Positions 217 to 39,301 of a stretch of DNA of 64,000 nt are shown one piece after another; within the stretch, counting starts at the first letter, position 1, and each line of letters opens with the position of its first letter. Origin of the DNA: Bradyrhizobium lupini (GTDB lineage: Bacteria; Pseudomonadota; Alphaproteobacteria; Rhizobiales; Xanthobacteraceae); contig NZ_CP162553.1 in the NCBI RefSeq assembly GCF_040939785.1, forward strand, positions 3,410,001 to 3,474,000. The letters are read 5' to 3'. A program made the translations under genes and the position numbers. The notes under the pieces are model-generated. The model did no database searches and had not been told where the DNA came from. It saw only the letters and a list, made by a program, of their open reading frames with translations.

Positions 217-1476
217 TTACTGGTAGCCCTTGGGGAACGGATCCGGCTCGACCAGATCGGCGGTCTCGTAGATCAGTTCGAACTGGCCATCGAGCTTGGC
301 GCGTCCCACCCGGGTCTTCGACCAGAGGTGATGATTTTCGTGGATGCGCACATAGCCTTCCGGAGCGCCCTTGAACTCGATGCCCGGCGACGCCGCCGCG
401 ATCTTGTCGATGTCGAAGGAGCCCGCCTTCTCCACCGTCAACTTCCACAGCCACGGGCCGAGATAGGCAGCCTGGGTGACGTCTCCGATCACGGTCTTCT
501 CGCCCCACATCTTCTTGAACGCCGGAACGAAGGTCTTGTTGTTCGGATTGTCGAGCGACTGGAAGTACTTCATGCAGGCATAGGCGCCCGCGATGTTCTC
601 GCCGCCAATGCCGTCGATCTCGTCTTCGGTCACCGAGATCGTGAGCAGCGCCTGCTTGGAGAGGTCGATGCCGGCCGCCTTGAGCTGCTTGTAGAACGCG
701 ACGTTCGAACCGCCGACGACGTCGGTGAAGATCACGTCGGGCTTGGTCAGCTTGATCTTGTTGATGACCGAATTGAACTGCGTATTGCCGAGCGGATAAT
801 ACTCTTCGCCGACCACCTTGCCCTTCAGCACGTTCTCGACATGCTTGCGCGCAATCTTGTTCGAGGTGCGCGGCCAGATGTAGTCGGAGCCGATGAAGAA
901 GAACGACTTGGCGCCCTTCTCCTTGGCGATCCAGTTCAGGCCGGCGAGGATCTGCTGAGTGGCTTCCTGACCTGTGTAGATCACGTTCTTGGACTGCTCG
1001 AGACCTTCGTAGAAGGTCGGGTAATAGAGCATGCCGTTGTACTGCTCCATGACGGGCAGCACGGCCTTGCGGGACGCCGAGGTCCAGCAGCCCATGATCG
1101 CCGCGACCTTGTCGTTGACCAGCAGCTTCTTGGCCTTCTCGGCAAAGGTCGGCCAGTCGCTGGCGCCGTCTTCCTGGATGAACTTGATCTTGCGACCGAG
1201 CACGCCGCCCATGGCATTGATCTGCTCGATGGCAAGCTTTTCGGCTTCGATCGAGCCGGTCTCGGAGATGGCCATGGTGCCGGTCGCCGAATGCAGGATG
1301 CCGACCGTCACCTCGGTGTCGGTGACCGCGAGACCCGTGGTGTTGACTGCCGAGGTCGCTGGGGCCTGCGCAAAAGATGCTCGCGGTAGCATGGTGATGG
1401 CCGGCACGGCCGCCATTCCCATCAATAATTTGCGCCGGAGCGGCGATAACAGGCCCTTGTTCGCTTCGTCTGACAT
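217..1476 (-). CDS. urtA: Urea ABC transporter substrate-binding protein UrtA
   Basis: This 420-residue protein is a periplasmic ligand-binding subunit of the branched-chain amino acid/urea family. It has an N-terminal signal with a twin-arginine-like stretch (LRRKLLMG) ending near ASFAQA. The mature part has the UrtA features VGILHSATGTMAISE and YYPTFYEGLEQSKN. It would deliver urea to UrtBC. The start at 1476 is preferred over longer frames because the signal peptide begins there and a G-rich stretch lies just upstream. The gene is divergent from the transporter-kinase gene at 1651, and urtB follows on the same strand. Amide- or nucleoside-binding relatives exist, but the sequence fits UrtA best. 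Confidence 0.92.
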   Translation of the reverse strand: MSDEANKGLLSPLRRKLLMGMAAVPAITMLPRASFAQAPATSAVNTTGLAVTDTEVTVGILHSATGTMAISETGSIEAEKLAIEQINAMGGVLGRKIKFIQEDGASDWPTFAEKAKKLLVNDKVAAIMGCWTSASRKAVLPVMEQYNGMLYYPTFYEGLEQSKNVIYTGQEATQQILAGLNWIAKEKGAKSFFFIGSDYIWPRTSNKIARKHVENVLKGKVVGEEYYPLGNTQFNSVINKIKLTKPDVIFTDVVGGSNVAFYKQLKAAGIDLSKQALLTISVTEDEIDGIGGENIAGAYACMKYFQSLDNPNNKTFVPAFKKMWGEKTVIGDVTQAAYLGPWLWKLTVEKAGSFDIDKIAAASPGIEFKGAPEGYVRIHENHHLWSKTRVGRAKLDGQFELIYETADLVEPDPFPKGYQ

Positions 1477-1547
1477 GAGCACCCCACTGTTGTTCGAGGA
1501 CACGCGATTGGTGCCGTGAGGATGGCTCGAATTTGTGCACTGCAAGC

Positions 1548-1565
1548 ATACGCAAGATCGCGTAT
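1548..1565. promoter_or_regulatory. Candidate operator between urtA and the transporter-kinase gene
   Basis: The divergent intergenic region holds the inverted repeat ATACGC-N6-GCGTAT, extended by one further matching base pair after a mismatch. It lies about 70 bases upstream of urtA and 85 upstream of the GTG at 1651. A dyad of this size suits a dimeric regulator, and the LuxR-type response regulator at 5007 is the obvious local candidate. Binding is inferred only. Confidence 0.4.
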
Positions 1566-1650
1566 ACTGCACCGCAAAATGACGACGTAGGCTTTTGGTA
1601 CGGATTTTGCGAGGGGGTCCGGCGCGTTCGGGAGTAGGAGTGGGGCTGAA

Positions 1651-4600
1651 GTGGCAGGGCGGCAGCGAATAGATCGCGTCAGGCGCCAGTACAACCAATG
1701 GGTCGCCAACCAGACGCTGGAAGACTACGCGCTGCGCTTCACCGCCAAGAGCGCGCGCCGGTGGTCCGCTGCCCGCGTCGCCAACACTGCCCTGGGCGCC
1801 ATCTCCTTTCTCGCGCTTGAGGCGATCGGCGGCACCATCACCCTGAATTATGGGGTTACCAACGCCACCGCCGCGATCCTCGTCGTCTCCATCATCATCT
1901 TCTGCTGCGGCGTCCCGATTGCCTATTATGCCGCCAAATGCGGCATCGACATTGACCTGCTCACCCGCGGCGCCGGCTTCGGTTATATCGGCTCGACCGT
2001 CACGTCGCTGATCTACGCCTCCTTCACCTTCATCTTCTTCGCGATCGAAGCGGTGATCCTGGCCACGGCGCTCGAGATGTGCTTCGGCATTCCGCGCCCG
2101 ATCGGCTATCTCATCAGCGCGGTCGCGATTATCCCGCTTGTCACCTACGGCATCACGCTGATCAGCCGCTTCCAGCTCTGGACGCAGCCGATCTGGATCA
2201 TCCTGCACATCCTGCCCTTTGCCGCCATCGCCTGGGCCAACCCTTACTCGTTCACGGAGTGGCGCAAATTCGCCGGCGAGCACGGCGACCCCAGCGGACA
2301 TTTCGATCTGCTGCTGTTCGGCGTAGCATCCTCCGTGGTGTTTTCGCTGGTGGCTCAGATCGGCGAGCAGGTCGACTTCCTCAGGTTTCTGCCGCGCGAC
2401 CGCCGCACCTCGCGAACGTCGTGGTGGGCCGCCCTGCTGATCGCGGGGCCCGGCTGGATCATCTTCGGCGCGCTGAAATTGCTGCTGGGCTCGTTTCTCG
2501 CCTTCTTCGCGCTGAGCCACGGCCTCTCCAGCGAGCTGGCGGCCGAGCCTGCGCACATGTATCTCGAGGCGTTTCGCTACGTGTTGTCGCAGCCGGACAT
2601 GGCTCTGGCACTCACCGGCGCGTTCGTGATCCTGTCGCAGCTCAAGATCAACGTCACCAACGCCTATGCAGGCTCGATCGCCTGGTCGAACTTCTTCTCG
2701 CGTCTCACTCATAGCCATCCGGGCCGGGTCGTCTGGCTGGTGTTCAACGTGATGGTGGCCTTGCTGCTGATGGAGATCGGCGTCTACAAGGCGCTGGAGC
2801 AGACGCTCGCGCTCTACTCCAATGTCGCGATCGCCTGGGTCGGTGCGCTGGTCTCTGATCTCGTGGTCAACAAGCCCCTCGGCCTGCGCCCGCCGCAGAT
2901 GGAGTTCAAGCGCGCCCATCTCTACGACATCAACCCGGTCGGCGTCGGCGCGATGACGATCGCGACCATCGTCTCGATCGCGGCATTCTACGGCCTGTTC
3001 GGCTCGACCATGAAAGCGCTCGCGGCCTTCGTCGCGCTGACGGTCGCCTTCGTCACCGCGCCCGTCATCGCCTGGCTCACCGACGGAAAATATTACATCG
3101 CGCGCAAGCCGAAGAGGAGTTGGGCCAACATCAGAATCGATCCAGTGCTGCATCTGCGAGCACCATTTCGAGCCGGAGGACATGACCTCCTGTCCTGCCT
3201 ATGCCGGCCCGATCTGCTCGCTATGCTGCTCGCTCGATGCGCGCTGCCACGATTTGTGCAAACCGCATGCGCGCGCGCAGGTGCAGTTCGCCGACGCACT
3301 CGCCAGGATCTTGCCGCAGGCCATCTATCAGCGAATCAATTCGCAGTTTGGCCACTACATCGGTGTGTTCGTGGTCTCCGCGGGCCTCGTCGCGCTGGTG
3401 CTGGGGCTGATCTACCTCCAGTCCTCGGTCAGCGTGCCCGGCGAGAACATGCTCGTCTCCAACGTGCTCTGGAAGGTGTTCTTCTCGCTCAGCATCATCA
3501 TCGGCGTCGTGGCCTGGCTGTTCGTGCTGGCGCAGCAGAGCCGACGGGCCGCCGAGGCCGAGACCCGACGCCAGACCACGCTGCTGATTCAGGAGATCGA
3601 CGCCCACAAGCGCACCGATGCCGAGCTCCAGCGCGCCAAGGAAATCGCAGAATCCGCCAACCTCGCCAAGAGCCGCTACGTGGTGGGCCTGAGCCACGAG
3701 CTGCGCTCGCCGCTGAATGCGATCAGCGGCTATGCCCAACTCCTGGAGCAGGACACCACGCTCAACACCAAGCCGCGCGACCAGGTCCGCGTCGTCCGCC
3801 GCAGCGCCGATCACCTCTCCGGCCTGATCGACGGCATTCTGGACATCTCCAAGATCGAGGCGGGGCGGCTGTACCTGTCGCGCGACGAGGTGCGCCTGAC
3901 CGAATTCCTCGACCAGCTCGTCGGCATGTTCCGCCTTCAGGCCGCGGCCAAGAGCATCGACTTCGTGTTCAGGCGGCCGGCGCATTTGCCGGTCGTGGTC
4001 TATGCCGACGAGAAGCGGCTGCGCCAGGTGCTGATCAATCTGCTGTCCAACGCGATCAAATTCACCCAGGTCGGCAGTGTGCAGTTCGTGGTGCACTATC
4101 GCAGCCCGGTCGCGGAGTTCGAGGTGATCGACACCGGCCCCGGCATCCAGGGCGACGATCTCGAACGCATCTTCGCACCTTTCGAACGTGGCGCGTTCGG
4201 TGTCTCGCAGCCGCAGACCGGCACGGGGCTGGGCCTCACCATCAGCCGGTTGCTCGCCGGCGTCATGGGCGGCGACATCAAGGTCTTGAGCACGGTCGGC
4301 AGCGGCAGCACGTTCAAGGTCAAGATGCTGCTATCCGAAGTCACCAATCCGCAGCGCATTGCGCCGGTGGAGGCCCCGATCTCGGGCTATCACGGCGCGC
4401 GCAAGACCATCCTCATCACCGACGACGATCCCGTGCATCGCGACCTCCTGCGCGAGGTGTTGACCCCACTCGGCTTCATCCTGCTCAGCGCGCCCGACGG
4501 GCCTGGCTGCCTGGCGCTAGCCCAGCACTGCCGGCCTGATCTGTTCCTGCTCGATATCTCCATGCCTGGCATGGACGGCTGGACGGTGGCGGAGACGCTG

Positions 4601-5023
4601 CGCGCCAGCGGCCACCATCAGGCGCGCATCCTGATGGTGTCTGCCAGCGCGCTCGAGGCGCACGGCACACCGCTGGCACAGCCTTTCCACGACGGCTACC
4701 TGATGAAGCCGATCGATATTCCCAGGCTTTTGGAAAGTATCCGCCAGCTTCTCAAGGTCGAATGGCAACACGGCTCGGAGGAGATCGCGGTGCCGCTGTG
4801 GCGGCCGGAGAGCGGCTCGCGGCCGCCCGTACGACACATCGAGGCTCTGATCGGGCTCGGTCAGATCGGCTACGTCAAGGCTATCCAGTTGAAGCTGGAC
4901 GAGATCGGCAGTGAGCACCCTGAACATGCCGACTTCGTCGCGGAAATGCGGTCGCTGATCGACCGCTTCGATCTCGGCCAGTACATGGCCACATTGAAGA
5001 CGTTGCATGCGTATGAGCACTGA
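1651..5023 (+). pseudogene. NCS1-permease/hybrid histidine kinase fusion, frameshifted
   Basis: With one surplus base removed (one A of the AA at 3135-3136) the gene encodes about 1123 residues. Residues 1-495 are a multi-span permease resembling the NCS1 (purine/cytosine/allantoin) family. Next comes a nine-cysteine stretch (about 3149-3270), then two transmembrane segments. The kinase part has a HisKA site (SHELRS, His near 681), an ATPase domain (NLLSNAIKF, DTGPGI, GTGLGL) and a C-terminal receiver (LLDISMPGMDG). It is probably a sensor kinase that uses its transporter domain to detect a substrate. The start is GTG with GGAG upstream. The response regulator overlaps its end and urtA is divergent, suggesting a urea or related nitrogen signal. 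As written, the kinase half is out of frame. Confidence 0.8.
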
Positions 5024-5935
5024 GTCGAAAAAGCGCGACGTCGCGCTCGTTGTCGACGACTCCCCGGAGACGCTGCGGCTGCTCACCGACGCGCTCGACA
5101 GCGCCGGGATGACGGTGATGGTGGCGCTCGATGGCGCGGCCGCGATGCGTATCGTCGACCAAATCACGCCCGACATCGTGCTGCTCGACGCTGTGATGCC
5201 GGGCATGGACGGGTTCGAGACCTGCCGCCGCCTCAAGCGCGATGCGGGCCTTGCCAATGTCCCGGTGATATTCATGACGGGGCTCGCCGAGACCGAGCAC
5301 ATCGTGCGCGGGCTGGAGGCCGGCGGCGTCGACTACGTGACCAAGCCGATCGTGATCGAGGAGATGCTGGCGCGGATCCGCGTTCATCTCGGCAATGCGC
5401 GGCTGACGCAAAGCGCACGCGCCGCGCTCGATGTCTCCGGCCGATTCCTGTTCGCGGTCAACCGCCAGGGCAAATTGTTGTGGGCGACCCCGCAGGCGCA
5501 GAAGCTGCTGGCGGACCACCACGGCGCGCAGGCCGACGACGATTTCGTCCTGCCGGTATCATTGCTGCAATGGCTGGAGCAGGCGAAGGGCAAGGGCAGC
5601 TCGAAGTCGCAGGCGGCTTCCTTGCCCGACAATCCTCAGCTCCGATTGTACTACATGGGCGAGACCGCTCCGAACGAGTTCCTGCTGCGGCTTTCTAGGA
5701 GTCCGGCACCGCGCCGCCACCCGAATTCACCAGCGAGCTTGGCCTCACCACCCGCGAAGGCGAGGTGCTGGCCTGGCTCAGCAAGGGCAAGACCAACCGC
5801 GACATCGCGCAGATCTTGGGCTTGAGCCCGCGCACGGTCGACAAGCATCTCGAGCAGATCTACTCCAAGCTTGGGGTCGAGAACCGGACTGCGGCTGCGG
5901 CGATTGCAACGAATGCGACCAGAAGGAATTCCTGA
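5007..5935 (+). pseudogene. Response regulator, receiver plus LuxR-type HTH, frameshifted
   Basis: The frame opens with a receiver domain (acidic pocket DD near residues 17-18, phosphoacceptor Asp61 in LLDAVMPGMDG, Lys113) and a middle section. One base is missing near 5694-5699. After that point, in the neighbouring frame, the sequence continues with a complete LuxR/NarL helix-turn-helix (LTTREGEVLAWLSKGKTN, then LSPRTVDKHL) up to the stop at 5933-5935. The restored protein is about 309 residues. The start overlaps the kinase stop, so the two are translationally coupled partners. A second ATG at 5013 is equally possible. As written, the DNA-binding domain would be lost. Confidence 0.82.
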
Positions 5936-6116: not shown

Positions 6117-7619
6117 TCACCCGTACACAAACTCCCCGCCTTCCAGATCCGTCTTCGGGATCTCGTCCTTTTCGGTCCAGTAATCCTGGCTGTGCTGCCA
6201 TTCCGGCTTGTCGCCGCGCTTGGGCAGCAGGTCCATGTTGCGCATCATGTAGCCGGGGTTGAAGTTTTCCGGATCGATCCAGGGCAGGATCGGCATGTTG
6301 TGGTCTTCGGCCCGCAACTTCACCTCGACCTTTTTCCTGCCTTTGGCCTTCATGTGGCCGAGCAGGCGGCAGACGAAGTCGGCCACGAGGTCGACGCGCA
6401 GCGTCCAGCTGGCGCGGAAATAGCCGAACACCCAGACCATGTTCGGCACGCCCGTGAACATCATGCCGCGATAGGTGACGGTGTCGCCGAAGGCGAGCGG
6501 CTTGCCGTCGACCTCGAAGGCGATGTCGCCGAGCGCCGCGAGATTGAAGCCGGTTGCGGTGACGATGACGTCGGCCTCGAGCAGCTTGCCGGATTTGAGC
6601 TGGATGCCGTTCTCGACGAAACATTCGATCTCGTCGGTGACGACGGACGCCTTGCCGCTGGCGATCCCCTTGAACAGATCGGCATCGGGAACGAAGGCGA
6701 TGCGCTGCCGCCACGGCCGGTAGCTCGGCGTGAAATGGGTGTCAACATCGTACTCCGGACCGAGCACTGCGCTGATCTGGCCGATCAGCTCTTGCTTCAC
6801 CTGCTCGGGCTTGGAGATGCACAGTTTCGTGAAGGCGTCCTGCTCGAACAGGATCTTGCGGCGGACGATCTCGTGGATCCAGGCCTCGTCAACCTGCAGC
6901 CGGCGCAGCTCCTCCGCGATCTCGATGGCGTTGCGGCCGAGACGGAAATAGGTCGGCGACCGCTGCAGCATCGTGACATGCGCGCATTTGTCGGCGATGT
7001 TCGGCACCAGCGTCGCCGCCGTCGCGCCGGAGCCGATCACGACGACCTTCTTGTTCGCGAGCTCGATGTCATCAGGCCATGTCTGTGGATGAACGATGCG
7101 GCCCTTGAAGCGATCCGTACCCTTCCATTCCGGCGTATAGCCTTCCGAATGGCGGTAATAGCCCTGGCACATCCAGAGGAAGTTCGCCGTGAAGGTTTTC
7201 GCTTCGCCAGTGTCGGTCGTCACCGCCTCGATGGTCCAGAGGTTTTGCTCGCTCGACCAGCTCGCCGAATTGATCTTGTGCTTGTAGCGGATATGCCGCG
7301 CGATGTCGTTTTCGTCAATCACCTCGTTCATGTAGGCGAGGATTTCCTCGGCAGTCGCGATCGGTGGCCCGACCCAGGGCTTGAAGCTATACCCGAAGGT
7401 GTGGAGATCGCTGTCGGAGCGGATGCCGGGATAGCGATGCGTGGTCCACGTGCCGCCGAACGTCGCCTGCGTTTCCAGGATGACGAAGCTCGCACCCGGA
7501 AGCTGCTTGGTCATGTGATAGGCGCTGCCGATGCCCGAGATGCCGGCGCCGACGATCAGCACGTCGAAATGTTCAGAAGCCTGTTTGGCCGTGGCGTGAC
7601 TGCGAACAGCGACATTCAT
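6117..7619 (-). CDS. Flavin-containing (Baeyer-Villiger type) monooxygenase
   Basis: A 500-residue soluble oxygenase. The FAD site GAGISG lies at residues 24-29 and a second dinucleotide (NADPH) site, GSGATA, near 196. Between them the Baeyer-Villiger fingerprint F-x-G-x3-H-x3-W-P is complete at residues 171-182 (FKGRIVHPQTWP). Such enzymes insert oxygen next to ketones to form esters or lactones using NADPH and O2. The substrate cannot be read from the sequence. The ATG at 7619 is chosen because the FAD fold begins soon after; longer frames add a low-complexity basic leader. It stands alone, convergent with the response regulator. Confidence 0.87.
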   Translation of the reverse strand: MNVAVRSHATAKQASEHFDVLIVGAGISGIGSAYHMTKQLPGASFVILETQATFGGTWTTHRYPGIRSDSDLHTFGYSFKPWVGPPIATAEEILAYMNEVIDENDIARHIRYKHKINSASWSSEQNLWTIEAVTTDTGEAKTFTANFLWMCQGYYRHSEGYTPEWKGTDRFKGRIVHPQTWPDDIELANKKVVVIGSGATAATLVPNIADKCAHVTMLQRSPTYFRLGRNAIEIAEELRRLQVDEAWIHEIVRRKILFEQDAFTKLCISKPEQVKQELIGQISAVLGPEYDVDTHFTPSYRPWRQRIAFVPDADLFKGIASGKASVVTDEIECFVENGIQLKSGKLLEADVIVTATGFNLAALGDIAFEVDGKPLAFGDTVTYRGMMFTGVPNMVWVFGYFRASWTLRVDLVADFVCRLLGHMKAKGRKKVEVKLRAEDHNMPILPWIDPENFNPGYMMRNMDLLPKRGDKPEWQHSQDYWTEKDEIPKTDLEGGEFVYG

Positions 7620-7742
7620 TGTTGCTTCTATGCCTTGCTTGTTTTTGGCCGCCCTTGGTTGGGCGGCGCGTTTCCTCCGCGACGGACATGGTCGCCCATC
7701 GCGCTTCCGCTTCAAGATGACATAGATCGGGTCGCGGTCAAA

Positions 7743-8501
7743 TCACAGCGCCGCACCCCAGCTCCGCGCGGTCTGCAAGATCCAGTCGCGATAGAGCGTG
7801 AGCGGCGTAACACCGGTCAGCCCGCCGCAGCCGGCGGCTCCGTTCGGCCCCGTGGACCAGCTGATGACGCCGACGAGCACGGATCCGGTCGGCTTGTCCT
7901 CGAACACGGGACCGCCGGAATCGCCGGTGCAGGCGCCAATTCCGTCGCGAACACCGTTGGTTACGGGGTCGACCAGCCGGATCTGGAGCGTGCCGGGCTG
8001 ACCCGTCGCGACGAGGCCGGCAACACGCGTCGCGCCGCCACTCTTGCCCTCGCCACGCACGGTGACGCCGATACCGGCGATGACGAAGCGGCTGCCGACT
8101 TGGATCGGAATATTCGGCGCGCCGACGGGCACCGTCGATTTTCCCTTGAGTGGAATTTCCAGCTGCAGCAGCGCCACGTCGGCGGTAGCGCGATGCGCTT
8201 GCATTGCCTGCATGTTGAAATTCGGATGGATCGCGACGGTGCGGACATTCAGCAGTTGCGGCTGCCCGTCGGTGCCGCGATCGACGATCTTGTAGTCCGC
8301 GCCGGGTTGCACGCAGTGGGCGACGGTAAGCACCAGCTTTGGCGCAACGAGGGTGCCGGTACAGAAATTGCCGCGCGAGCCGACGATCGTGACGACGGCG
8401 CGCGCGACGCCATCGGCCTGGGGCGTGCCGCCACCAACGATGGCATAAGCGGGCGTGGCGAGCGGCAGCGCGGTCGCAATGAGGGTTACGAGCTTCTTCA
8501 T
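7743..8501 (-). CDS. Secreted trypsin-like serine protease (S1 family)
   Basis: The 252-residue product starts with a typical Sec signal peptide (MKKLVTLIATALPLATPAYA). The mature chain begins IVGGG, as in trypsin-like zymogens after processing. All three catalytic residues are present: His62 in LTVAHC, Asp108 in TADVALLQ and Ser195 in GDSGGP. It is therefore predicted to be an active periplasmic or secreted endopeptidase. The start at 8501 is selected because the signal peptide begins there; a longer frame upstream would bury it. No inhibitor or partner gene is adjacent. Confidence 0.88.
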   Translation of the reverse strand: MKKLVTLIATALPLATPAYAIVGGGTPQADGVARAVVTIVGSRGNFCTGTLVAPKLVLTVAHCVQPGADYKIVDRGTDGQPQLLNVRTVAIHPNFNMQAMQAHRATADVALLQLEIPLKGKSTVPVGAPNIPIQVGSRFVIAGIGVTVRGEGKSGGATRVAGLVATGQPGTLQIRLVDPVTNGVRDGIGACTGDSGGPVFEDKPTGSVLVGVISWSTGPNGAAGCGGLTGVTPLTLYRDWILQTARSWGAAL

Positions 8502-8612
8502 GGGAACACGCTTTGGTGTTGGCGTCGGTGACAGCATTAGGATGGCTTCGGACTGGCCCTTGCCGATAGCGCATGCTAGCGCTCTTGGAAAGGAATTGAC
8601 GAGGGCGGGATC

Positions 8613-9248
8613 TTGACGATCGAGGCTGTGATCTTTGATTTTGGTGGCGTGCTGACGAGTTCGCCGTTTGAAGCGTTCACGCGATTCGAGACAGAGCGTG
8701 GCCTGCCCATCGACATCATCCGGCGCACCAATGCCGCCAATCATCTGGAAAATGCCTGGGCCAAGTTCGAGCGCGCCGAGGTCGATATCGACACGTTCGA
8801 CAGACTGTTCGCGACGGAATCGCTGGCGCTCGGCGCGGAGGTGCGCGGCCGCGACGTGCTGCCGCTGCTTCAGGGCGATCTGCGCCCCGAGATGGTCGAA
8901 GCGTTGAAGCGCATCAAGGCGCAATTCAAGACCGGCTGCATTACCAACAATCTGCCGGCCAATGCGATCGGCAGCATGACCGGGCGCTCACTCTATGTCG
9001 CCGAGGTGATGGTGCTGTTCGACCATGTCATCGAGTCCGCCAAAATCGGCCTGCGCAAGCCCGACCCGCGCATCTATCAGCTGATGGTCGAAACGCTGAA
9101 GGTCGATCCGAAGAATTGCGTCTATCTCGACGATCTCGGCGTCAATCTGAAGCCGGCACGCGAGATGGGCATGACGACGATCAAGGTCACCAGCGGCGCC
9201 CAGGCGATCGCCGGGCTCGAGGCCGCGACGGGATTGAAGCTGAGCTAG
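8613..9248 (+). CDS. HAD-superfamily hydrolase-like protein
   Basis: A 211-residue cytoplasmic protein of the haloacid-dehalogenase superfamily. Motif 1 is FDFGGVLT, with the nucleophilic Asp but Gly instead of the usual second Asp. Motif 2 is CITNN, the Lys motif is GLRKPDP, and motif 4 is YLDDLGVNL. The Gly substitution and an alpha-helical cap resemble the ACAD10/epoxide-hydrolase N-terminal HAD group more than classical phosphatases. The start is TTG at 8613. Substrate unknown. Convergent with mtnA. Confidence 0.75.
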   Translation: MTIEAVIFDFGGVLTSSPFEAFTRFETERGLPIDIIRRTNAANHLENAWAKFERAEVDIDTFDRLFATESLALGAEVRGRDVLPLLQGDLRPEMVEALKRIKAQFKTGCITNNLPANAIGSMTGRSLYVAEVMVLFDHVIESAKIGLRKPDPRIYQLMVETLKVDPKNCVYLDDLGVNLKPAREMGMTTIKVTSGAQAIAGLEAATGLKLS

Positions 9249-9289
9249 AGCGTCATTCTCCGTCATTGCGAGCTATCGCCGAGCCAGAA

Positions 9290-10399
9290 CTACTCCGCCG
9301 CGGCTGCGATCCTCTCCGGAAACGCCGCGGCAAGTGAGGCGCGATCGGGCTTCAGCACGCCGCGCTCGGTGATGAGGCCGGTGATGAGCCGTGCCGGGGT
9401 CACGTCGAAGGCATAGTTCGCGACCGGCGAGCCCTCCGGCACGATGCGCACGGTCTCAAGCCTTCCGTCCGCGGTGCGGCCGGTCATGTCGGTGACTTCG
9501 GTGCCGCTGCGCTGCTCGATCGGGATGTCGCGGATGCCGTCATCAACGGCGAAATCGATCGTCGGCGACGGCAGCGCGACATAGAACGGCACGTTATTGT
9601 CGTGAGCGGCGAGCGCCTTCAAATATGTGCCGATCTTGTTGCAGACATCGCCATTGGCGGCAACGCGATCGGTGCCGACGATGGCGAGATCGACCATGCC
9701 GTGCTGCATCAGATGCCCGCCGGTGTTGTCCGGAATCACCGTATGCGCAACGCCGTGATGGCCAAGCTCCCAGGCCGTGAGCGAGGCGCCCTGGTTGCGC
9801 GGCCGCGTCTCGTCGACCCAGACATGGATCTTGATGCCGCGCTCGTGCGCCAGATAGATCGGCGCCGTCGCCGTGCCCCAGTCGACGGTCGCAAGCCAGC
9901 CGGCATTGCAATGGGTCAGCACATTGACGGTCTCGCCCGGCTTCTTCCTTGCGACGATCGCCTCGATGAGTTTCAGGCCGTTGCCGGCGATGCCGCGGTT
10001 GATCTCGACGTCCTGCTCGACGATCTCGTCGGCGCGCGCATAGGCGGCCTCCGCGCGCTCCAGTGCATCGATCGGCGCGAGGCTCGCGCGCATCTCGTCC
10101 AGGGCCCATTTCAGATTGATCGCGGTCGGCCGCGCCACCACGAGCGTGTCGTAGGCGCGCTTCAGGCCGGCGTCGGAAGCGTCCTCGCGCATCGCCAGCG
10201 CCATGCCGTAAGCTGCGGTCGCGCCGATCAGTGGCGCACCGCGCACCAGCATGTCGCGGATGGCGAGGGCCGCGTCCTCGCATGAGGTCAGCTTCGCAAC
10301 GATGAACTCATGCGGCAGCCGGCGCTGGTCGATCGCTCCGACCGACCAGCCGTCGCGCTCACGCCAGATGCTGCGGAAATGCTTGCCGTCGACCTTCAT
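9290..10399 (-). CDS. mtnA: S-methyl-5-thioribose-1-phosphate isomerase MtnA
   Basis: A 369-residue member of the eIF2B-like isomerase family. It converts methylthioribose-1-phosphate to methylthioribulose-1-phosphate in methionine salvage. Catalytic Cys164 (LTHCNAG) and Asp244 ([11 protein letters not shown]) are present, as is the RGAPLIG substrate loop near residue 55. The gene lies 18 bases downstream of mtnP on the same strand, so both steps from methylthioadenosine to the ribulose compound are encoded together. The later genes (mtnB, C, D) are not in the window. Confidence 0.95.
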
Positions 10400-10417
10400 G
10401 GGATTCTGCCTTTCGTA

Positions 10418-11293
10418 TCACGTTCGCAGGATGCGCCCGGCCACCGCGTCGAGCTTCTTCAAGAGCTCGGGATCGCGCGCCTCGGGCGCGGTGATCAGCG
10501 CGGTATCGAGCGCGCGGTCCGAGCCGATCGGGCACGGCTCATGCTCGCGCGGGAAGTCTTTCGCCAGCCGCGCCACCAGCGCTTTTGCCTTGTCGGCGTT
10601 CGAGCTCAGAACGCGGATGATGTCCTGCACGGTGACGGCGTCGTGATCAGGATGCCAGCAATCGAAATCCGTCACCATCGCGACGGTGGCGTAGCAAAGC
10701 TCCGCCTCGCGCGCGAGTTTCGCCTCGGGCATGTTGGTCATGCCGATGACGGAATAGCCAAGCGTCTTGTAGGTCATGCTTTCCGCATAGGTCGAGAATT
10801 GCGGTCCTTCCATGCAGACATAGGTGCCGCCGCGCGCAAACGCGATGCCCTCGGCTTCGGCCGCCGTGGCAAGATGGATGCGCAGCCGCGGCGAGACCGG
10901 GTGCGCCATTGAGACATGCGCGACGCATCCCCGGCCGAAGAACGAGCTCTCGCGTTTGTGGGTGCGATCGACGAACTGGTCGACGAGAACGAAGGTTCCC
11001 GGTGGCAGTTCCTCTCTGAACGAGCCGCAGGCCGACAGCGAGATCAGGTCGGTGACGCCGGCGCGCTTGAGGACGTCGATATTGGCGCGATAATTGATGT
11101 CGGAGGGCGACAGTCGGTGGCCCTTGTCGTGGCGCGGCAGGAACACGATCTGCAGGCCGGCAATCGAGCCGCGCCGCAGGGGCGCCGACGGTTCGCCCCA
11201 GGGGCTCCTGATCACCTCTTCGCGAGCGCCCTCCAGCCCCGGCAGATCGTAAATGCCGGAGCCGCCGATGATGCCCAATACGGCCTGCGTCAT
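10418..11293 (-). CDS. mtnP: S-methyl-5'-thioadenosine phosphorylase MtnP
   Basis: A 291-residue purine-nucleoside-phosphorylase family protein. It has the N-terminal phosphate loop IIGGSGIYD, a middle LPRHDKGH motif and the MEGPQFSTYAES substrate loop. It phosphorolyses methylthioadenosine, a by-product of polyamine and homoserine-lactone synthesis, to adenine and methylthioribose-1-phosphate, which is the substrate of MtnA encoded just downstream. The length and motifs match MTA phosphorylase rather than general PNP. Confidence 0.94.
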   Translation of the reverse strand: MTQAVLGIIGGSGIYDLPGLEGAREEVIRSPWGEPSAPLRRGSIAGLQIVFLPRHDKGHRLSPSDINYRANIDVLKRAGVTDLISLSACGSFREELPPGTFVLVDQFVDRTHKRESSFFGRGCVAHVSMAHPVSPRLRIHLATAAEAEGIAFARGGTYVCMEGPQFSTYAESMTYKTLGYSVIGMTNMPEAKLAREAELCYATVAMVTDFDCWHPDHDAVTVQDIIRVLSSNADKAKALVARLAKDFPREHEPCPIGSDRALDTALITAPEARDPELLKKLDAVAGRILRT

Positions 11294-15448: not shown

Positions 15449-18315
15449 ATGACGTCGATCCGCGACAACGAGCTTGATGCACGCCGCGAGCAGGGCCCGA
15501 AGGCCCTGGTCGGGCTGAGCCAGCTTGCACTCGACCACATGGAACAGGGTGTCTGCGTCTACGATGCCGGCAACCGGATCGTGCTGGTCAATCAGCGCTA
15601 TCTCAGCCTGTTCAACATGTCGGCCGAAATCGTGCGGGTCGGCACGAGCTACCGCGACGTGCTCGCCCACAGTGTGGCCCTCGGCAACATCCCCGCGGGG
15701 GAAGTCGACGCACTCTATGCCGCGCGCATGGCGCGGATCGCAGCCGGCCAGCCGTTCCGGACTCAACAGACACTCGCGAGCGGCCTCGTCATGGCGCTCG
15801 AGCTGAAGCCGCTTCCCGGCGGCGGCTGGATGACGATCTGCGACGACGTCAGCCGCCTCGCCCGGCTCGAGGCGGAGCTGCGCGTGCAGACCGAGCGCAG
15901 CCAGCACGCGCTCGCCAACATGGCGCACGGCTTGATCATGTACGATGCCGACAGCCGCGTCGTCGTCTGCAACGAACGTTTCCTGAATCTCTATAACCTC
16001 GACCCGGAAATCGTGAAGCCGGGCGTCTCGCATTGTACGGTCATCGAGCATTGGATGTCGCGCGGCAACCTGCCGGGCATGCCGGGCGAGGAATTCCACG
16101 ACACCAGGCTGGAGGACGTGCGCACCAGGAAGGAGAAAACCCTGCTGGTGATGCGCTATGACGGACGGATGGTGCAGGTGGTTTCCCGTTTTCTGCCCGA
16201 CGGCGGCTGGGTGACGGTGCACGAAGACGTCACCGAGCGGCTGCAATACGAGGAGATGCTGAGGCAGCAGAACTTCATGCTCGATGCGGCGTTGGAGAAC
16301 ATGGCGCACGGACTCGCCTTCTACGACAGCGAGATGCGCCTGCGCGTCTGCAACACCACCTACCGGAAGATCTATCGGCTCTCGCCGGAGGAAGCCAAGC
16401 CGGGCACGCATCTCGGCGAACTGATCGAACGCTCGATGGCAAACGGCGCGTTCTCTTCCGAGTATAGCCCGCGACACCTCCTGGAGGCCGCCAGCGCAAG
16501 GATCGCCGACCGCAACTCCTCGCCGATACGCCGACGGATGTCGAACGGCACCACGATCTCCGTGCGCTATTGCGCCCTGGCCGAGGGTGGTTTTGTGGCC
16601 ACCTACGAGGACATCACCGAGCGCGAGCACGCAGTCGAGGAGCTGAGCGAGCAGTATCGGCGCTTCGACGCGGCCCTGAACAACATGAGCCAGGGCCTGT
16701 GCATGCTCGATTCGAGCTTGCGCGTCATTGTCTGCAATCGGCGCTACATCGAGATGTACGGACTGTCACCCGAATTGGTGAAGCCGGGTGTGTCGATGCG
16801 CGAGATCATGGAGCACAGCTGCGAGCTCGGCATCCATCCAAACACCACCGCCGCGCGGCTCTATGCCGACTATGTCGAGAGGCTGCGCGAGGGCGAGCAC
16901 ACACTGCACCGCTATTTGGGCGACGGCCGCATCATCAAGCTCAATCACAAGCGAATGGAGCATGGCGGCTGGGTCGTCACCTATGAGGACGTTACCGAGC
17001 GCCACAAGGCCCAGGCCCGCGTTGCGCATATGGCGCGGCACGATTCGCTCACCGACCTGCCCAACCGCACGCTGTTCCGCGAGAAGATGGGCGAGGGGCT
17101 GAACCAGGTCGCAATCGCAGGTGGCGCGATGGCCGTGCTGTGCTTCGATCTCGACAATTTCAAGACCGTCAACGACCGCCTCGGACACGCGGCCGGCGAC
17201 CGGCTGTTGCGCTGGGTCGCGGCGCGGCTGCAGGAGAATGTCGGCGAGCACGACACCGTCGCGCGGCTCGGTGGCGACGAGTTCGCGGTTCTCCAGCGCG
17301 GACCGCAGCCGCAATCGGCGGAAAGGCTCGCACGCCGCCTGGTGGAGATCATCGGTCACCCGCCGCCGCTGGAGAACCAGTCGATCCATGTCGGCGTCTC
17401 CGTCGGCATCGCAATCGCTCCCGATCACGGGCTCGATGCCGACGAGCTGATGAAATGCGCCGACCTCGCGCTGTACGAGGCCAAGGCCAAGGGGCGCGGC
17501 GCCTATCAGCTGTTCGAGCCCAAAATGGAGGAAGAGGCGCGCAGCCGGCACGCGCTCGAGCACGATCTGCGCGGCGCGCTGGAGGCCCGTGAATTCCACC
17601 TGGCGTTCCAACCGCAGGTGCGGCTCGACACCACCGAACTTACCGGCTTCGAGGCGCTGCTGCGCTGGAAACATCCCTCGCGCGGCCTCGTCCCGCCGGC
17701 CGAATTCATTCCGATTGCGGAAGAGAACGGGCTGATCGTTCCGATCGGAGAGTGGTGCTGCGCACAGCCTGCGCGACCGCCGCGACCTGGCCCGATCTCA
17801 CGGTCGCGGTGAACCTGTCGCCGGTGCAGTTCCGATCGCGCGGGCTGGTGACGATGGTGACGAGCGCGCTTGCGGAGGCCGGCCTGCCGCCGCATCGGCT
17901 CGAGCTCGAGGTCACCGAGACGGCGCTGCTCGACGACAGCGAGGCGACGATCGAGATCCTGCACCAGCTGCGCGCGTTGGGGGTGCGCGTCAGCCTCGAC
18001 GATTTCGGGGTCGGCTATTCTTCTCTGAGCTATTTGCGCAAGTTTCCGTTCGATCGCATCAAGATCGACCGCTCCTTCGTCGGCACGCTCGGCGAAAGCC
18101 CGGAGAGCGTGGCGATCGTCCGCACCATCGCCAGCCTCGGCTCGGTGCTCGGCGTCGAGACCACGGCGGAAGGCGTCGAGACGATCGAACAACTCGACTT
18201 CGTCCGCGAATGCGGCTGCACCGCCGTGCAGGGATATTATTTCGGCAAGCCCTCGCCGGCCGCGGAGGTCGGACGCATGATCGAGACGCTGAGCGCAGTC
18301 CGCCGTGTGGCGTAA
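15449..18315 (+). pseudogene. Four-PAS GGDEF-EAL c-di-GMP protein, frameshifted
   Basis: The restored protein has about 955 residues and no membrane segment. It consists of four similar PAS-type modules (residues about 20-500, each with a core like NMAHGLIMYD and VCNERFLNLYNL), a GGDEF domain with intact LGGDEF near 607, and an EAL domain with EALLRW near 735, IDRS and DDFGVGYSS. It should make and/or degrade cyclic di-GMP under control of the sensors. One G is missing at 17754-17755: GEW should continue VLRTACA in the adjacent frame. As written, the EAL domain is cut after its first 60 residues. Confidence 0.85.
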
Positions 18316-24983: not shown

Positions 24984-25657
24984 TCAGCGATTCTCCCGCC
25001 AGCAGGTCGAAAGTGAACTCGCCTGCGCTCGCGCCACATAGGTCCCGGCCAGCCGCCGGACACCCGGTCCCGGCGTCCTGGCGCTGCGTTTGACCGGATT
25101 CGGCAGGATAGAGGCTAGAAGCGCGGCCTCCCGGGGGAGAGGTTCGCCGCCGACTTGCCGAAGGCATAGGCGCTGGCGGCCTCGGCCCCAAACTGGCTCT
25201 GCGGGCCGAGCTCGGCGATGTTGAGGTAAATCTCCAGGATCCGTGCCTTGGGCAGGACGAGATCGATCCACAGCGCCAACGGGAATTCCAGCGCCTTCCG
25301 GACGAAGTCCCGCCCCTGCCAGAGGAACAGGTTTTTCGCCACCTGCTGGGTGATGGTGGAAGCGCCCCGGAACGGGGTGCCGTCCTCCTTCGCATCGTCG
25401 ATCGCCTCACGCAGCGCACCCCAGTCAATGCCGTGATGCTTGCAGAAATGGGCGTCCTCGGCCGCCACCACCGAGCGTGGCAGCGAGGGCGACATCGCCG
25501 CCAGATCGATCCATTCCCGCTGCATCGGCGCACCCCGCAGCGAGCGCCAGATCATCAGCGTCGAAACGGGATGGCCGGCACGGTAGAACGGCGCGACGAC
25601 ATAGGGCGCGAGAGCCGCGACCGCGAGCACCAGGAGAAGGGTTTTGACGACGCGCAA
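24984..25657 (-). pseudogene. mtgA: Monofunctional peptidoglycan transglycosylase MtgA, frameshifted
   Basis: An inner-membrane glycosyltransferase (family GT51) that polymerises lipid II into glycan strands. It has an N-terminal membrane anchor ([18 protein letters not shown]) and the motifs [32 protein letters not shown], and [11 protein letters not shown]. After AANLSP the frame is broken at a run of five G on the given strand (25133-25137). Six would restore [17 protein letters not shown] and a 224-residue protein ending at 24984. As written, about 45 C-terminal residues are lost. Confidence 0.88.
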
Positions 25658-27457: not shown

Positions 27458-29276
27458 CTAGTTACAGACCTCGGCATTGCCATCGTTGCCCGGGCCGCCG
27501 CCGCCGCGATATTCGAGATGGCAGCCGCGGTTGACCGCACGACAGCCACTGTTGTTGCCCACTCGAGCGGCGGCTGGCGCCAGCGGCAGCAGCGATGCCC
27601 GCAGCGCCACCAAAGCCGCCGGCCGCTCCGGCAGCCTCACCGCCGGCCTGACGACGCTGCCGTGCGGGACGCTCGTCGCCGTCGTCCCGCTTGGCGGTCG
27701 CAGGCTTGGCGGTCGCAGGCTTGGCGGCGCGCTGCTTCTCGCACTCGTTGTCGTCGTTGAGCGCATAGCCATCACGGCAGACGATCTTGGTGCATTTGTC
27801 GCCGTCGGTCTTGAAGCCGTGCTCGCAAACCAGCGGACAGACGCGCGACTGTTTCGACTTGACCGTGTCGAGTGCATCGGTGCTCGCCACCTTCACGTCG
27901 AGCTTGGTGCCGGCATAACGGTTGAACTGCGATAACGACCGCTGCGCGGATGTCGTCCAGTTGCCGTCGGCGGCGCCGGAGAAGCAGCCGACGCGGCCGA
28001 GCTCGGTCTGTACCGAGCGGCTGAGATCGGCCGGCGCGATGGCCGGCGTCAGCGAGGCGACGTTGGTGCCGGCGGGGCCCGCCGTGCTGGCGGGCGCTGC
28101 ACTCGGCGCCGCGGCGGCGAGATTGACGCGCTGCTGCTCGGCAGCGGCCGCCTGCTGCTGCGCCTGCTCCTTGGCCTTTTGCGCCGCAAGCTGTATCTGC
28201 TCGGCGGCCTCCGCATCGGCGGCTGCCTTGGCCTGCGTATCCTTCTGCGCGCCAAGTGCGGCAAGACGATCGCGCTCGGCCTCGGCCTGTTTCGCCTTCT
28301 CGGTGGCCGCCGCATGAGCCTGCTCGGCGCCGATTTTCTCGAGTTGCAGCTTGGCAAGGCTCGCATAGAAGCCGTCGGGATGTTGGGCGAGAAAGACCTC
28401 CCACGCCGGCCGGTTGCCGACCTGGAGCGCGAGCTCGTAATCGCGGCGGATGTCGGCCTGAGGGTTGGGCGCGGGCGCAGCGGCAGCCGCAGCGGTCACC
28501 TTGACCGGCACCAGCGGCACGTCCTCGCCGCCGAGCGAGCCATAGACGAACGGCTCCTGCTTATTACCTGTCGACTTGAGCACGTCGTCGCGCACGAAGC
28601 CGAAGGCACGGCGGACGTCGAGGCCGGGCCTCGTCAGATGCTTCGACAGCGCCACCGTAAAGGGGCTGTTCGCACCGTCGCCATCCTGCGCCGTGAAACC
28701 GGCCTTGGCCGAATAGGCGATCAGCGTGTTCGAGCTGGTCGGCTCGACCTGGGCGAGGCCGCGGCCGACGCCGCGCGAGGCGATCGTGCGCTTCATGGTC
28801 TTGCCGAACGGATTGTCACGGCAGGCATCCAGGATCACCAGGCGAAGCTGCTTAGCCGGTTCGACCGCGACCAGGACGCGGTCGAGGGAGAGCGCCTCGT
28901 CAAAGACGTCGGTGTCACGCTCCAGCTTGGCGTCGACAGGGATCAGATAGTTCGAGCCTTCGACCTCGAGGCCGTGGCCGGCATAATAGACCACGGCGAT
29001 ATCGGCATCGCGGGTCCGGTCGGCGAATTCGCGCAGCACACGCCGGGTTTCCTGCGCCGTCAGGTCGTGCCGGGAATCGACGATGTCGAACCCGGCCTCC
29101 TTCAGCGTCCGGGCCATCACCGAACCGTCATTGACGGGGTTCGTCAGCGACGGCGCATGCTGATAGGCGGAGTTGGCGATCACGAGCGCGACGCGCTTTC
29201 CGGCGAAAGCAGGCCCGGCGCCGAATAGCAGCGCGACGGCGAGGAGGACTGGGCAAAGTCTGAGCAATTTGCGCAT
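27458..29276 (-). CDS. Secreted caspase-like (peptidase C14) protein with cysteine-rich tail
   Basis: About 605 residues when the frame is restored. A signal peptide ends near AFAGK. The caspase fold follows with His101 (YYAGHGLEV) and Cys152 (LDACRDNPF), so a Cys-His dyad is intact. Then come an Ala/Gln-rich coiled coil (residues about 300-395), a small peptidoglycan-binding-like segment (ELGRVGCFSGAADGNW) and a cysteine-rich end (CPLVCEHGF, CTKIVCRDGY). A net one-base change near 27560-27570 moves the final residues, which should read GCHLEYRGGGGPGNDGNAE, into the next frame. As written the frame stops at 27462. Substrate unknown. Confidence 0.8.
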
Positions 29277-29455
29277 GACACGACTTCCGATTTCGGGGCG
29301 GTTCGCGCCCTTTGGGACGGCTTTAGCAGGGTCCGTCGCGGACGCTTGTAACGGAGGTCACGAAGATGGCGCCGGCGGCAAGCCGAAAGGTCCCCTTTGT
29401 TCGTCGCGCCAGTCCGGCCGCGGTTCGCCGCCAAACAGGTGCGCAGCAGGTTCCC

Positions 29456-29884
29456 TCAGACATCCCCGATGTGGCCCCGATATTGCGGCAGATTATCCGT
29501 AATCTCGTGCCAGGGCGCCTTCGACCCCACGAAAATGTGGGCGCTCGGTCGGATCGAGGGGGCATCGACCAGGGTTCCCATGGCGACGTGGACCCATTTT
29601 CCGTCGCGCACCCGGGAATAAAGCAACGAGCCGCAGCGGGCGCAGTGGGCGTCGTGGGTGGTTTCGTCACCGTAGATGGTGAGCTGGTTCTCGCCTCTGA
29701 CGATGCGGAGCTTGCCCTGCTCGATGCCGGCGAACGGCTTGAAGGCAGCGCCGGTGGTGCGGCGGCAATTCGAGCAATGGCAGTTCATCGCATAGGAGAA
29801 CGCGTCCGCTACCTCGTAGCGCACGGCGCGGCAGCAGCATTCGCCGATCAGGAAGGGAGCGTTCGAATTCTCTGATCCGGTCAT
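29456..29884 (-). CDS. GFA family zinc protein (formaldehyde-activating enzyme-like)
   Basis: A 142-residue protein of the glutathione-dependent formaldehyde-activating (GFA/Mss4-like) fold. It has paired zinc-binding cysteines in GECCC, NCHCSNCRR and HCARCGS. Members bind zinc and some may act on S-hydroxymethyl-glutathione, but most have no proven reaction. The ATG at 29884 is used because the fold starts soon after. No partner gene is evident. Confidence 0.8.
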   Translation of the reverse strand: MTGSENSNAPFLIGECCCRAVRYEVADAFSYAMNCHCSNCRRTTGAAFKPFAGIEQGKLRIVRGENQLTIYGDETTHDAHCARCGSLLYSRVRDGKWVHVAMGTLVDAPSIRPSAHIFVGSKAPWHEITDNLPQYRGHIGDV

Positions 29885-31452: not shown

Positions 31453-33059
31453 ATGGAAGCGAAATTTCAGACCTTTCTCATCCTGCTCGCCGTGCTGGCG
31501 GGCACCGCGCTTGTCGCGCGCCGCTTCAACATCGCGCCCGCCATTCTGCTGATGCTCTCAGGTGTCGGCCTTGCCTTCGTGCCGGGCATGCCAGCGGTCG
31601 AACTGCCGCCGGAACTGGTGCTGCTGATGGTGCTGCCGCCGCTGATCTACTCGGCGAGCGTCGCGATGAGCTGGCGCGAGTTCAAAAAGAATCTTCGCCC
31701 GATCGTGCTGCTGGCGGTCGGTGCGGTGATCTTCACCGCGGCGTTGGTCGCAACCGCCACGCATTATTTCATCGGCCTGCCCTGGACGATCGGCTTCCTG
31801 CTCGGCGCCATCGTCGCGCCGCCCGACGTGGTGGCGCCGCTCGCGATCGCGCGCCGGCTGCATCTGCCGCGCAGGCTGATGGTCATCCTCGAAGGCGAAG
31901 GGCTCGCGAATGATGCCACCGCTCTGATCCTCTACCGCTTCGCGCTCGCCGCAATCATGGTCGGGCAATTCTCGCTGCCTCTGGCAGGCGGCGAGTTCTT
32001 GCTCATCGTCGCCGGCGAGATCGCCTTCGGCATCGGCGTCGGTTGGCTCTCCCTGCGGTTCCGCAAATGGTCGGGAGACCCGCAGGTCGAGCTGACACTG
32101 TCGCTGATCACGCCCTACGTGTCCTACTGGCTGCCCGAGCATCTCGGCGGCTCCGGCGTGATCGCCACCGTCGCCTGTGGCCTCTATGTGAGCTGGAATG
32201 GCCCGCTGCTGATCTCGGCATCGACGCGCCTGCAAGGCATCTTCTTCTGGGACCTCGTGATTTATCTGATCGAGGGCTTGCTGTTCCTGCTCACCGGATT
32301 CCAGATGCGCGCACTCTACGAGAAATCGAAGGCGTTCCCGCTCGACGACATCATGATTGCGACTGCCGTGGTGCTGGCGGTGGTCGTGATCGCGCGCTTC
32401 GCCTGGCTCTATCCCGCGACCTATCTGCCACGAATGCTCAGCAAGTCGCTGCGTGCGCGCGATCCGTCACCACCATGGCAATGGCCGTTCGTGCTTGCGT
32501 TCACCGGCGTGCGCGGCGCGGTGTCGCTGGCGGCAGCACTGGCGCTGCCGTTCACGCTGCCGGGCGGCGAGGCCTTTCCGTTTCGCGACCTGATCCTGTT
32601 CGTCGCGTTCGGCGTCATCTTCATCACACTGATCGGCGTCGGCCTCACGCTGCCCCCGTGGTTCGTTGGCTCGGTGTCGCGGAAGCCGGTCGCAACGAGC
32701 ATGCCGCCGAGCACGAGGCCGAGATCGCGGCACGGCGCCAGGCCCTCGACGCGGCGCTAAAGTCGCTCGACGCGCTGACCGAGGAAAAGGACGTGTCCGA
32801 CGAGGTGATGCGGCTCCTGCGCGCCCGCCACGAGATCCGGGTCAACCAGCTGCCGGACTCGCTCGATCCCACCCACCACGACGTCTCCGCCGCCGGCACC
32901 GCACTGACCCGCGGTCTGATCGCCGCCGAGCGCAAGTTCATCCACGAGCTGCTGCGCGACGGCCAGATCACCGACGAGACGCGGCGGCGGATCGAGCGCG
33001 ATCTGGACCTGGAGGAGGCAAGCTTGGCAAACCGGGAGTACCGGGGAGGGCCGCTATAG
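31453..33059 (+). pseudogene. Na+/H+ antiporter (CPA1/NhaP type), frameshifted
   Basis: The restored protein has about 535 residues: roughly twelve membrane helices followed by a cytoplasmic helical tail of about 130 residues. Ion-binding signatures include GAIVAPPDVVAP and GEGLANDATALI, the latter with the essential Asn-Asp pair. It exchanges sodium (or potassium) for protons across the inner membrane. A C-run at 32653-32657 reads C5; C6 would continue LPPVVRWLGVAEAG and restore the tail to the stop at 33057-33059. As written all membrane helices remain but the tail is replaced. Confidence 0.85.
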
Positions 33060-38663: not shown

Positions 38664-39158
38664 CTATGCGGCTTTCTGACAATGCGCACAAACGCCCGTG
38701 ATTTCCACCACCGACAATTTGGGAGCGAAGCCTGAGCTGCGCGCGGCGACGTTGAGGTCCTTGGCGAAGGATGCCGACGGAATCTCACCGACCAGGCCGC
38801 AGCGCTCGCAGATCAGGAACGTCACCGCCGAGATCGCGTCGTGGTCGTGAGCGGCGCAGGCGAGATAGGCGTTGCGGCTTTCGATCCGGTGCACGAGGCC
38901 GTTGGCCATCAGGAAATCGAGAGCACGATAGACCGTGATCGGCGCCGGCCGCGACATCGACTTCGCCAGTTCGTCGATGACCTCATAGGCGCCGAGCGGC
39001 CGGTGGCTCGAGAGCAGCGCCCCCAATACATGGCGGCGTATAGGCGTGAATTTCTGCGCGCGCTCTCCGCAAACGGCCTCGGCATGCGCCAGCGCATCCG
39101 CGGTGCAGCGGCCGTGATCGTGATCGGGCGCGGGAAATGCCGGTTTTGCGAGGGTCAT
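38664..39158 (-). CDS. zur: Fur-family zinc uptake regulator Zur
   Basis: A 164-residue Fur-family repressor with a winged helix (TPIRRHVLGALLSSHRP, ITVYRALDFLMANGLVHRI) and structural zinc cysteines CERC and CAHC. The pattern (HDHDA loop, long C-terminal domain ending in CAHC) fits Zur better than Fur or PerR. It would repress zinc uptake genes when zinc is sufficient. No znuABC lies in the window. Confidence 0.83.
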   Translation of the reverse strand: MTLAKPAFPAPDHDHGRCTADALAHAEAVCGERAQKFTPIRRHVLGALLSSHRPLGAYEVIDELAKSMSRPAPITVYRALDFLMANGLVHRIESRNAYLACAAHDHDAISAVTFLICERCGLVGEIPSASFAKDLNVAARSSGFAPKLSVVEITGVCAHCQKAA

Positions 39159-39271
39159 GCGACCGGCGTTCTAGCATTTCGAAAGGGGAACCCAAAGCAG
39201 GACCGGCGATGCGGCCAGCAGCCATGCTCGGCCTGCGGGACAGCGTCCCGCAAACCCGCCATGAAATAATC

Positions 39272-39301
39272 ATAAGCTTGCTTATTATATTGCAAGCTTA
39301 T
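39272..39301. promoter_or_regulatory. Palindromic operator upstream of marR-emrAB
   Basis: A perfect ten-base inverted repeat, ATAAGCTTGC and GCAAGCTTAT, is separated by ten A/T bases. It ends 14 bases before the marR ATG, over the place where the promoter should be. It is the best candidate for the binding site of the MarR repressor encoded immediately downstream. Confidence 0.65.

Follow-up and report, generated by a model that had tools for sequence, protein, structure and literature searches.

A transporter-fused two-component system facing the urt-fmd operon of Bradyrhizobium lupini and its proposed role in sensing small amides

The locus and its conservation in Bradyrhizobium

The 64,000-nucleotide stretch of Bradyrhizobium lupini DNA analysed here (G000:C1:3410001-3474000, G000 being the strain's own genome; hereafter the window), which is close to loci from named Bradyrhizobium, holds a UrtA-like gene, a shared regulatory region and, divergent from UrtA, the coding region of an NCS1-like permease and a hybrid histidine kinase, overlapped at its end by that of a LuxR-type response regulator (Table 1). 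The reading that we regard as probable is that these form a transceptor two-component system for small amides (or urea), whose LuxR-type partner activates the facing operon. A first-pass annotation made from the letters alone had placed the pair back to back with urtA around a common regulatory region; this arrangement stands, and its conservation is beyond chance, all 60 loci fetched from the genus being alike.

Table 1. Features of the locus, in window coordinates
Feature	Position	Strand	Basis
UrtA/FmdD-like substrate-binding protein, encoded first in the facing operon	217..1476	-	TIGR03407, 537.9 bits (cut-off 492.75)
Candidate operator palindrome ATACGC-N6-GCGTAT	1548..1565		sole strict match in own genome
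Sigma-54-like -24/-12 element TGGTACG-N4-TTGC, upstream of kinase gene	1596..1610	+	strict pattern in 54/60 genus loci
NCS1-like permease domain, GTG start	1651..3132	+	predicted fold of relative L206 nearest Mhp1/CodB
Linker cysteine cluster, window frame 2	3146..3259	+	8 Cys invariant in 36 relatives (alignment)
Two further hydrophobic segments, likely transmembrane, ahead of kinase	3356..3535	+	window translation
HisKA domain	3668..3865	+	PF00512, 3e-17
HATPase_c domain	4007..4330	+	PF02518, 2e-24
Receiver domain of hybrid kinase (frame of the kinase open to 5023)	4409..4741	+	PF00072, 5.4e-20
LuxR-type response regulator gene, with a frame break near 5697	5007..5934	+	receiver 5046-5381, helix-turn-helix ~5744-5908

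The permease was found in 99 of 117 genomes of the genus, and the 60 loci were fetched from 59 of these. In every one UrtA is divergent from the permease, with kinase and regulator following, and so the linkage to urtA across Bradyrhizobium, which the first-pass annotation had set in advance as a check on its proposal, is upheld. Window-type UrtA occurs in 97 of the 117 genomes (E <= 1e-120) and never without the kinase, while 18 genomes lack both. Two genomes have the kinase only: in G035 the contig ends within UrtA, and G012, whose locus (L317) apparently lies on the same contig as the named locus L218, gives no UrtA match. No formamidase over the family cut-off was found in G009, G027 or G036, the three genomes tested among the 18 that lack the kinase. 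In L064 (from G005), the best kinase match covers just residues 1-392 of 613. Separately, one contig (G011:C16) carries the whole locus twice (L035, L036), with equal identities to the window, and a second match to the kinase DNA in the B. lupini genome, at C1:647216, spans 47 bases only.

The letters of the window do not themselves encode two intact proteins. The permease lies in frame 1 (from the GTG to ~3130) and the cysteine cluster and kinase in frame 2, where HisKA, HATPase_c and receiver domains stand in one protein, as they do in the 1123-residue relative L206. The regulator is likewise split, its receiver (to ~5695) and helix-turn-helix (~5699-5934) falling in different frames (PF00072 at 2.5e-28 and PF00196 at 6.2e-20); in the L024 and L206 regulators, receiver and GerE domain share one open frame. 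The claimed fusion of an NCS1-type permease to a hybrid kinase is thus intact in relatives and divided in the window, and the claimed regulator does overlap the kinase, by 17 bases, without being intact there. In a sister genome (G076) whose permease is 99% identical, kinase gene (1162 amino acids) and regulator (309 amino acids) are both open, and one-base length differences between G076 and the window fall at both frame breaks. Across the genus, the open frame that holds the permease is at least 1122 amino acids long in 94 of the 99 positive genomes; the five exceptions are G000 (982), G005 (937), G033 (602), G100 (755) and G051 (two pieces).

The fault extends to other genes. When 60 G076 frames were checked in the window, 40 were full-length, eight entries (seven distinct genes) frame-broken, two partial and ten absent; in the reverse direction, 41 of 52 window frames were full-length in G076, four broken, five partial and two absent. 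The facing operon's amiE (L023:5611-6646, outside the window) is in two frames in B. lupini and a single open frame in G076, and the B. lupini assembly has a completeness of 96.81, where most relatives in the genus reach 99-100. Because relatives are intact, other window genes and amiE are broken too and completeness is low, assembly error is the likely and simpler account of both breaks, with true inactivation of the window genes conceivable as the less likely one. The further window genes that appear frame-broken relative to G076, at 15449-18312, 24987-25657, 27461-29679, 31453-33056 and 38667-39273, point to many small length errors in the assembly.

The sensor protein and its distribution

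Assigning the permease to a transporter family relies on structure prediction more than on sequence. In Pfam, nothing matches its sequence significantly (best E 0.12-0.58, to unrelated families), and it finds no PDB sequence match at E <= 1; PF02133, the classical NCS1 family, is not matched at E up to 5 by the relatives L206 and L252, nor anywhere in the B. lupini genome. The NCBIfam cytosine permease model is reached at E <= 0.1 by six of 18 members (best 5.3e-7) and gives the window frame 18.7 bits against a cut-off of 326, whilst a profile alignment (hhalign) with Escherichia coli CodB gives an E of 0.0037 and a probability of just 9%. A structure model of L206 residues 1-660 (pLDDT 79.0, pTM 0.79) has Mhp1 and CodB at Foldseek ranks 1-4, in a comparison that bears on model residues 28-485 and barely tests those outside. 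By Z score, CodB comes first at 25.4, followed by a tie between Mhp1 (23.7) and a taurine transporter (23.0); identity to Mhp1 and CodB is 14-19%. The permease is accordingly called NCS1-like for its predicted LeuT-type fold, to which NCS1 structures come nearest, with weak sequence support. No SLC5 (SSF) domain was matched in Pfam at E up to 5, and SLC5 structures ranked below NCS1 in Foldseek.

Between permease and kinase, eight cysteines (L024 residues 499, 502, 514, 522, 525, 526, 532 and 536) are invariant in the 36 aligned sequences, followed by two hydrophobic helices, which appear in the L206 model as two long helices; metal binding by this cluster is a guess. The STAC domain was not among the Pfam matches of the linker, which was not folded and searched alone.

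Matches to the permease-kinase extend well beyond the genus, occurring in 38 of 119 genomes of the family set, 21 of 337 of the class set and 53 of 398 of the phylum set; these sets overlap and each counts the B. lupini genome. Most of these matches lie in frames of at least 1096 amino acids, with exceptions that include a size class of 889-921 amino acids, broken genes and short fragments. The named set, comprising the best 80 of 467 confirmed loci and so biased to close relatives, takes in Alphaproteobacteria, Gammaproteobacteria (Alcanivorax, Marinobacter, Cellvibrio and others) and one metagenome-assembled genome of Burkholderiales. Where at least 9 kilobases (kb) upstream are available, window-type UrtA accompanies 61 of 63 of these best-80 loci and FmdA 59 of 63; the family set gives UrtA in 10 of 12 and FmdA in 12 of 12; and the class set (n = 15) gives window-type UrtA in eight, classical UrtA in three, neither in four and FmdA in eight. 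Three loci (L173, L174 and L175; kinase at ~7500-10535) represent a shorter class of ~885 amino acids with no receiver, for which UrtA was not found within the available stretch and FmdA lies 4.8-5.2 kb from the kinase. At L155:9323-11854 the middle of the permease-kinase gene is apparently gone, with the start of the permease and the end of the kinase left as separate frames, and in f35 genomes (L143, L144, L154; L315, L316) the kinase stands apart from the urt-fmd operon while an operator-like site stays beside the kinase.

Other fusions of a transporter to a histidine kinase are known; those studied are few, and the majority of them carry SLC5 domains (PMC9100948). The closest known kind are the SLC5/STAC kinases of CrbS/CrbR, CbrA/CbrB and RpuS/RpuR (PMC5715377, PMC9100948, PMC13022988), with which the principle is common and the transporter family not. 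CrbS and RpuS are hybrid kinases, CrbR and the partner of RpuS are LuxR-type regulators, CrbR depends on an imperfect inverted repeat upstream of the promoter it targets, and RpuS/R controls an uptake gene (same sources). Unlike them, the present protein has an NCS1-like transporter, a linker of an eight-cysteine cluster and two hydrophobic helices, and an amide operon facing it. The ammonium sensor/transducer of Kuenenia, an Amt domain fused to a histidine kinase, is also a transporter-based sensor of a nitrogen compound, with Amt and ammonium in place of the NCS1-like domain and the amide proposed here (PMC5764959), whereas the NCS1 transporters Mhp1 and CodB differ from the present permease in their low identity to it, in PF02133 and in its fusion to a kinase. 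AmsSR, considered as a possible member of the present family, combines 14 transmembrane segments with a hybrid kinase, and the available text on it has no wording on permease, SLC5, NCS1 or urea (PMC10112286). FlcA was considered as a known relative of the regulator and dropped: it is listed as an orphan regulator (PMC4618731), and the available text of the flcA paper has no match to formamid-, its single 'urea' being a buffer (PMC4264754). A search of open papers found no earlier NCS1-type kinase or two-component amide sensor.

A conserved palindrome in the divergent region

The intergenic region shared by urtA and the kinase gene contains, across the genus, a strongly conserved block around ATACGC-N6-GCGTAT, present in 59 of the 60 loci and placed 68-73 nucleotides from the urtA start in 58 of those 59. 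A further 120 loci (L136-L175, L206-L285) gave 102 divergent regions, reduced to 66 non-redundant ones by removing regions sharing many 8-mers, with the 60 genus loci excluded. TACG-N8-CGTA occurs in 40 of these 66, where first-order Markov resampling (20 rounds) predicts 0.1. A matrix was trained on 42 sites from these 40 regions, so only the other 26 constitute an independent test; 20 of them exceed the 99% null cut-off, two are marginal and four negative. Overall, a palindrome resembling ATACGTC-N4-GACGTAT is found in 60 of the 66. Its distance from the urtA alignment start has an interquartile range of 244-278 nucleotides and that from the kinase one of 101-272 (this analysis used a slightly different base background at an unchanged cut-off), and the steadier position on the urtA side is as expected if the urtA promoter is the target. 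Both the conservation of the palindrome and its more constant spacing from urtA are new in this analysis.

For the strict pattern, place is telling and count is no evidence. It occurs once in the B. lupini genome, at this locus, and in seven of nine genomes tested, with seven of the eight sites in those nine lying directly before the kinase gene; the reversed control pattern occurs four times in G000, four in G076, once in G167 and not at all in the other six. A second possible operator target in G076 (C1:1843031, L302) was taken as chance because the neighbouring frames, judged by eye without a family search, are not amide genes. Operator matches also precede the gene before UrtA in L146, FmdA in L284 (a weaker match) and the kinase in L143 and L144, and L141 has a marginal match only, near its UrtA. 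Another dyad, CGGT-N1-ACCG, occurs in 24 of the 66 divergent regions against 0.45 expected, and may lie in the urtA start, which those regions include.

On the kinase side, TGGTACG-N4-TTGC was labelled sigma-54-like from the -24/-12 consensus, which we presume it to represent. The element is rare outside the genus. In Bradyrhizobium DOA9, expression of urtA-D is lower in rpoN mutants, the urt copy meant not being identifiable from the available text (PMC13207237).

The facing operon and the likely ligand

The first-pass annotation had taken the facing genes for a urea uptake operon, and this part of its account is corrected here. Read in L023, outside the window, the order after UrtA is UrtB, UrtC, UrtD, UrtE, formamidase FmdA (757.6 bits, cut-off 500), an FmdB-like zinc ribbon protein and an aliphatic amidase, of which the frame-broken B. 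lupini piece scores 406.3 bits against a cut-off of 427; the operon is thus urtABCDE-fmdA-fmdB-amiE. FmdA is present in all 60 genus loci and AmiE in at least 19, a lower bound because the fetched stretches are short. A second UrtA in the B. lupini genome, at C1:2892516, lies ~7 kb from urease; the strict operator pattern was not found there, and weaker sites were not searched. Gene context therefore points to an operon for amides. An amide rather than urea had already been argued in 2010 for the second urt-like cluster of Bradyrhizobium USDA 110 (blr0968-blr0973), likewise beside formamidase and aliphatic amidase (Selengut et al., PMC3098086), the available text of which does not mention kinase, regulator or operator, and formamide uptake has been suggested by the authors for a similar cluster in Pseudomonas veronii (PMC13209695).

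Related operons have been described elsewhere. The fmdCABDEF genes of Methylophilus methylotrophus also combine formamidase, an FmdB-type protein and amide/urea uptake, the differences being that a putative positive regulator is named there, not a kinase-regulator pair, and that five urt genes stand here (PMC10781810). Operon III of Ectopseudomonas guguanensis G3, in a 2026 genome paper, similarly holds urtABCDE with a LuxR-type two-component regulator; fmdA is at the next locus tag and a hybrid kinase appears in a figure legend, and the available text treats the operon as urea transport without domain analysis (PMC13296017). At L218, amiE is directly divergent from the kinase, with no UrtA or FmdA inside the 10 kb flanks.

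In the mechanism that we favour, a short-chain amide (in Bradyrhizobium, formamide or acetamide; where the partner is a classical urtA, urea) would be bound, and perhaps also transported, by the NCS1-like permease domain, whose change of shape would reach the hybrid kinase by way of the cysteine cluster and the additional pair of helices. The kinase would phosphorylate the LuxR-type regulator, which would bind the ATACGTC-N4-GACGTAT-type palindrome upstream of urtA and activate urtABCDE-fmdA-fmdB-amiE, leading to uptake of the amide and its cleavage to ammonia; the sigma-54-like element may cause the sensor to be made under nitrogen limitation. The first-pass proposal that the system switches on the operon it faces is to this extent retained, with the amide replacing urea as the preferred cue. 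More tentatively, we suggest a distinct and widespread sensor family in which an NCS1-like receptor for formamide, acetamide or urea is combined with an eight-cysteine, possibly metal-binding module, two helices and a dedicated operator. Such a sensor would extend the known fusions by another transporter fold and a different linker; it comes with an operator open to testing and an operon that is a clear candidate for its target, and it would support the view that many 'urea' operons of urt-fmd type are amide operons. If the proposal is true, no NCS1-based transceptor kinase and no two-component sensor dedicated to short-chain amides would precede this one. The conserved site before urtA is short and steady in position, so that a reporter could be used to test ligand and coupling directly.

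Several observations weigh against this proposal. Kinase and regulator are frame-broken in the window; six of the 66 divergent regions, two of them marginal, lack a significant operator; and the count of the strict pattern carries no above-chance signal (one in G000, against four for the reversed control). In the two f35 genomes in which the fmd operon, set apart from the kinase, was inspected (L315, L316), no operator match was found before it; L147, L155, L173-L175, L218/L317 and L247 likewise gave none. Six relatives (L141, L146, L149, L150, L152 and L281) lie near a classical UrtA, with no FmdA in the available stretches, and L152 is near UreC as well. A formamidase search of 20 genomes, mostly picked as exceptions, found eight passing the FmdA cut-off, and among its 17 kinase-bearing genomes (short class included) nine have no FmdA over that cut-off (G012, G035, G167, G362, G442, G291, G387, G341 and G393, some of them drafts). 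In lineages without formamidase or near classical urtA, urea is the likelier ligand, or the partner may be a different one (L147, L155). At L138, a classical UrtA lies 9 kb away alongside one of window type.

These last observations lend support to the first alternative, that of a urea sensor whose permease domain binds urea and whose regulator induces a urea uptake operon. The window UrtA exceeds the TIGR03407 cut-off, four of the six relatives near classical UrtA (L149, L152, L281, L146) have the same operator type, and in Methylophilus both formamide and urea induce the fmd genes (PMC10781810). Set against this, formamidase and amidase sit in the facing operon itself, the amide arguments for USDA 110 and P. 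veronii point elsewhere, and the urease-linked UrtA has no strict site; as a general account, we consider a urea sensor unlikely. Secondly, the permease might only transport or anchor, with the kinase responding either to general nitrogen status or, by means of the cysteine cluster, to redox or metal state. The invariant cysteines and the sigma-54-like element would suit this, yet outside the family conservation is higher in the permease (56-69% identity, alignment A3) than in the kinase (39-54%, class set), and an amide or urea operon is a nearly constant partner, which leaves it decidedly improbable. Finally, that the linkage is a by-product of operon inheritance, with the regulator acting elsewhere and the palindrome belonging to another factor, draws on the fmd operons and kinase loci that lack an operator match and is very improbable given the placing of strict sites just before the kinase gene and the co-loss of UrtA and kinase in the genus.

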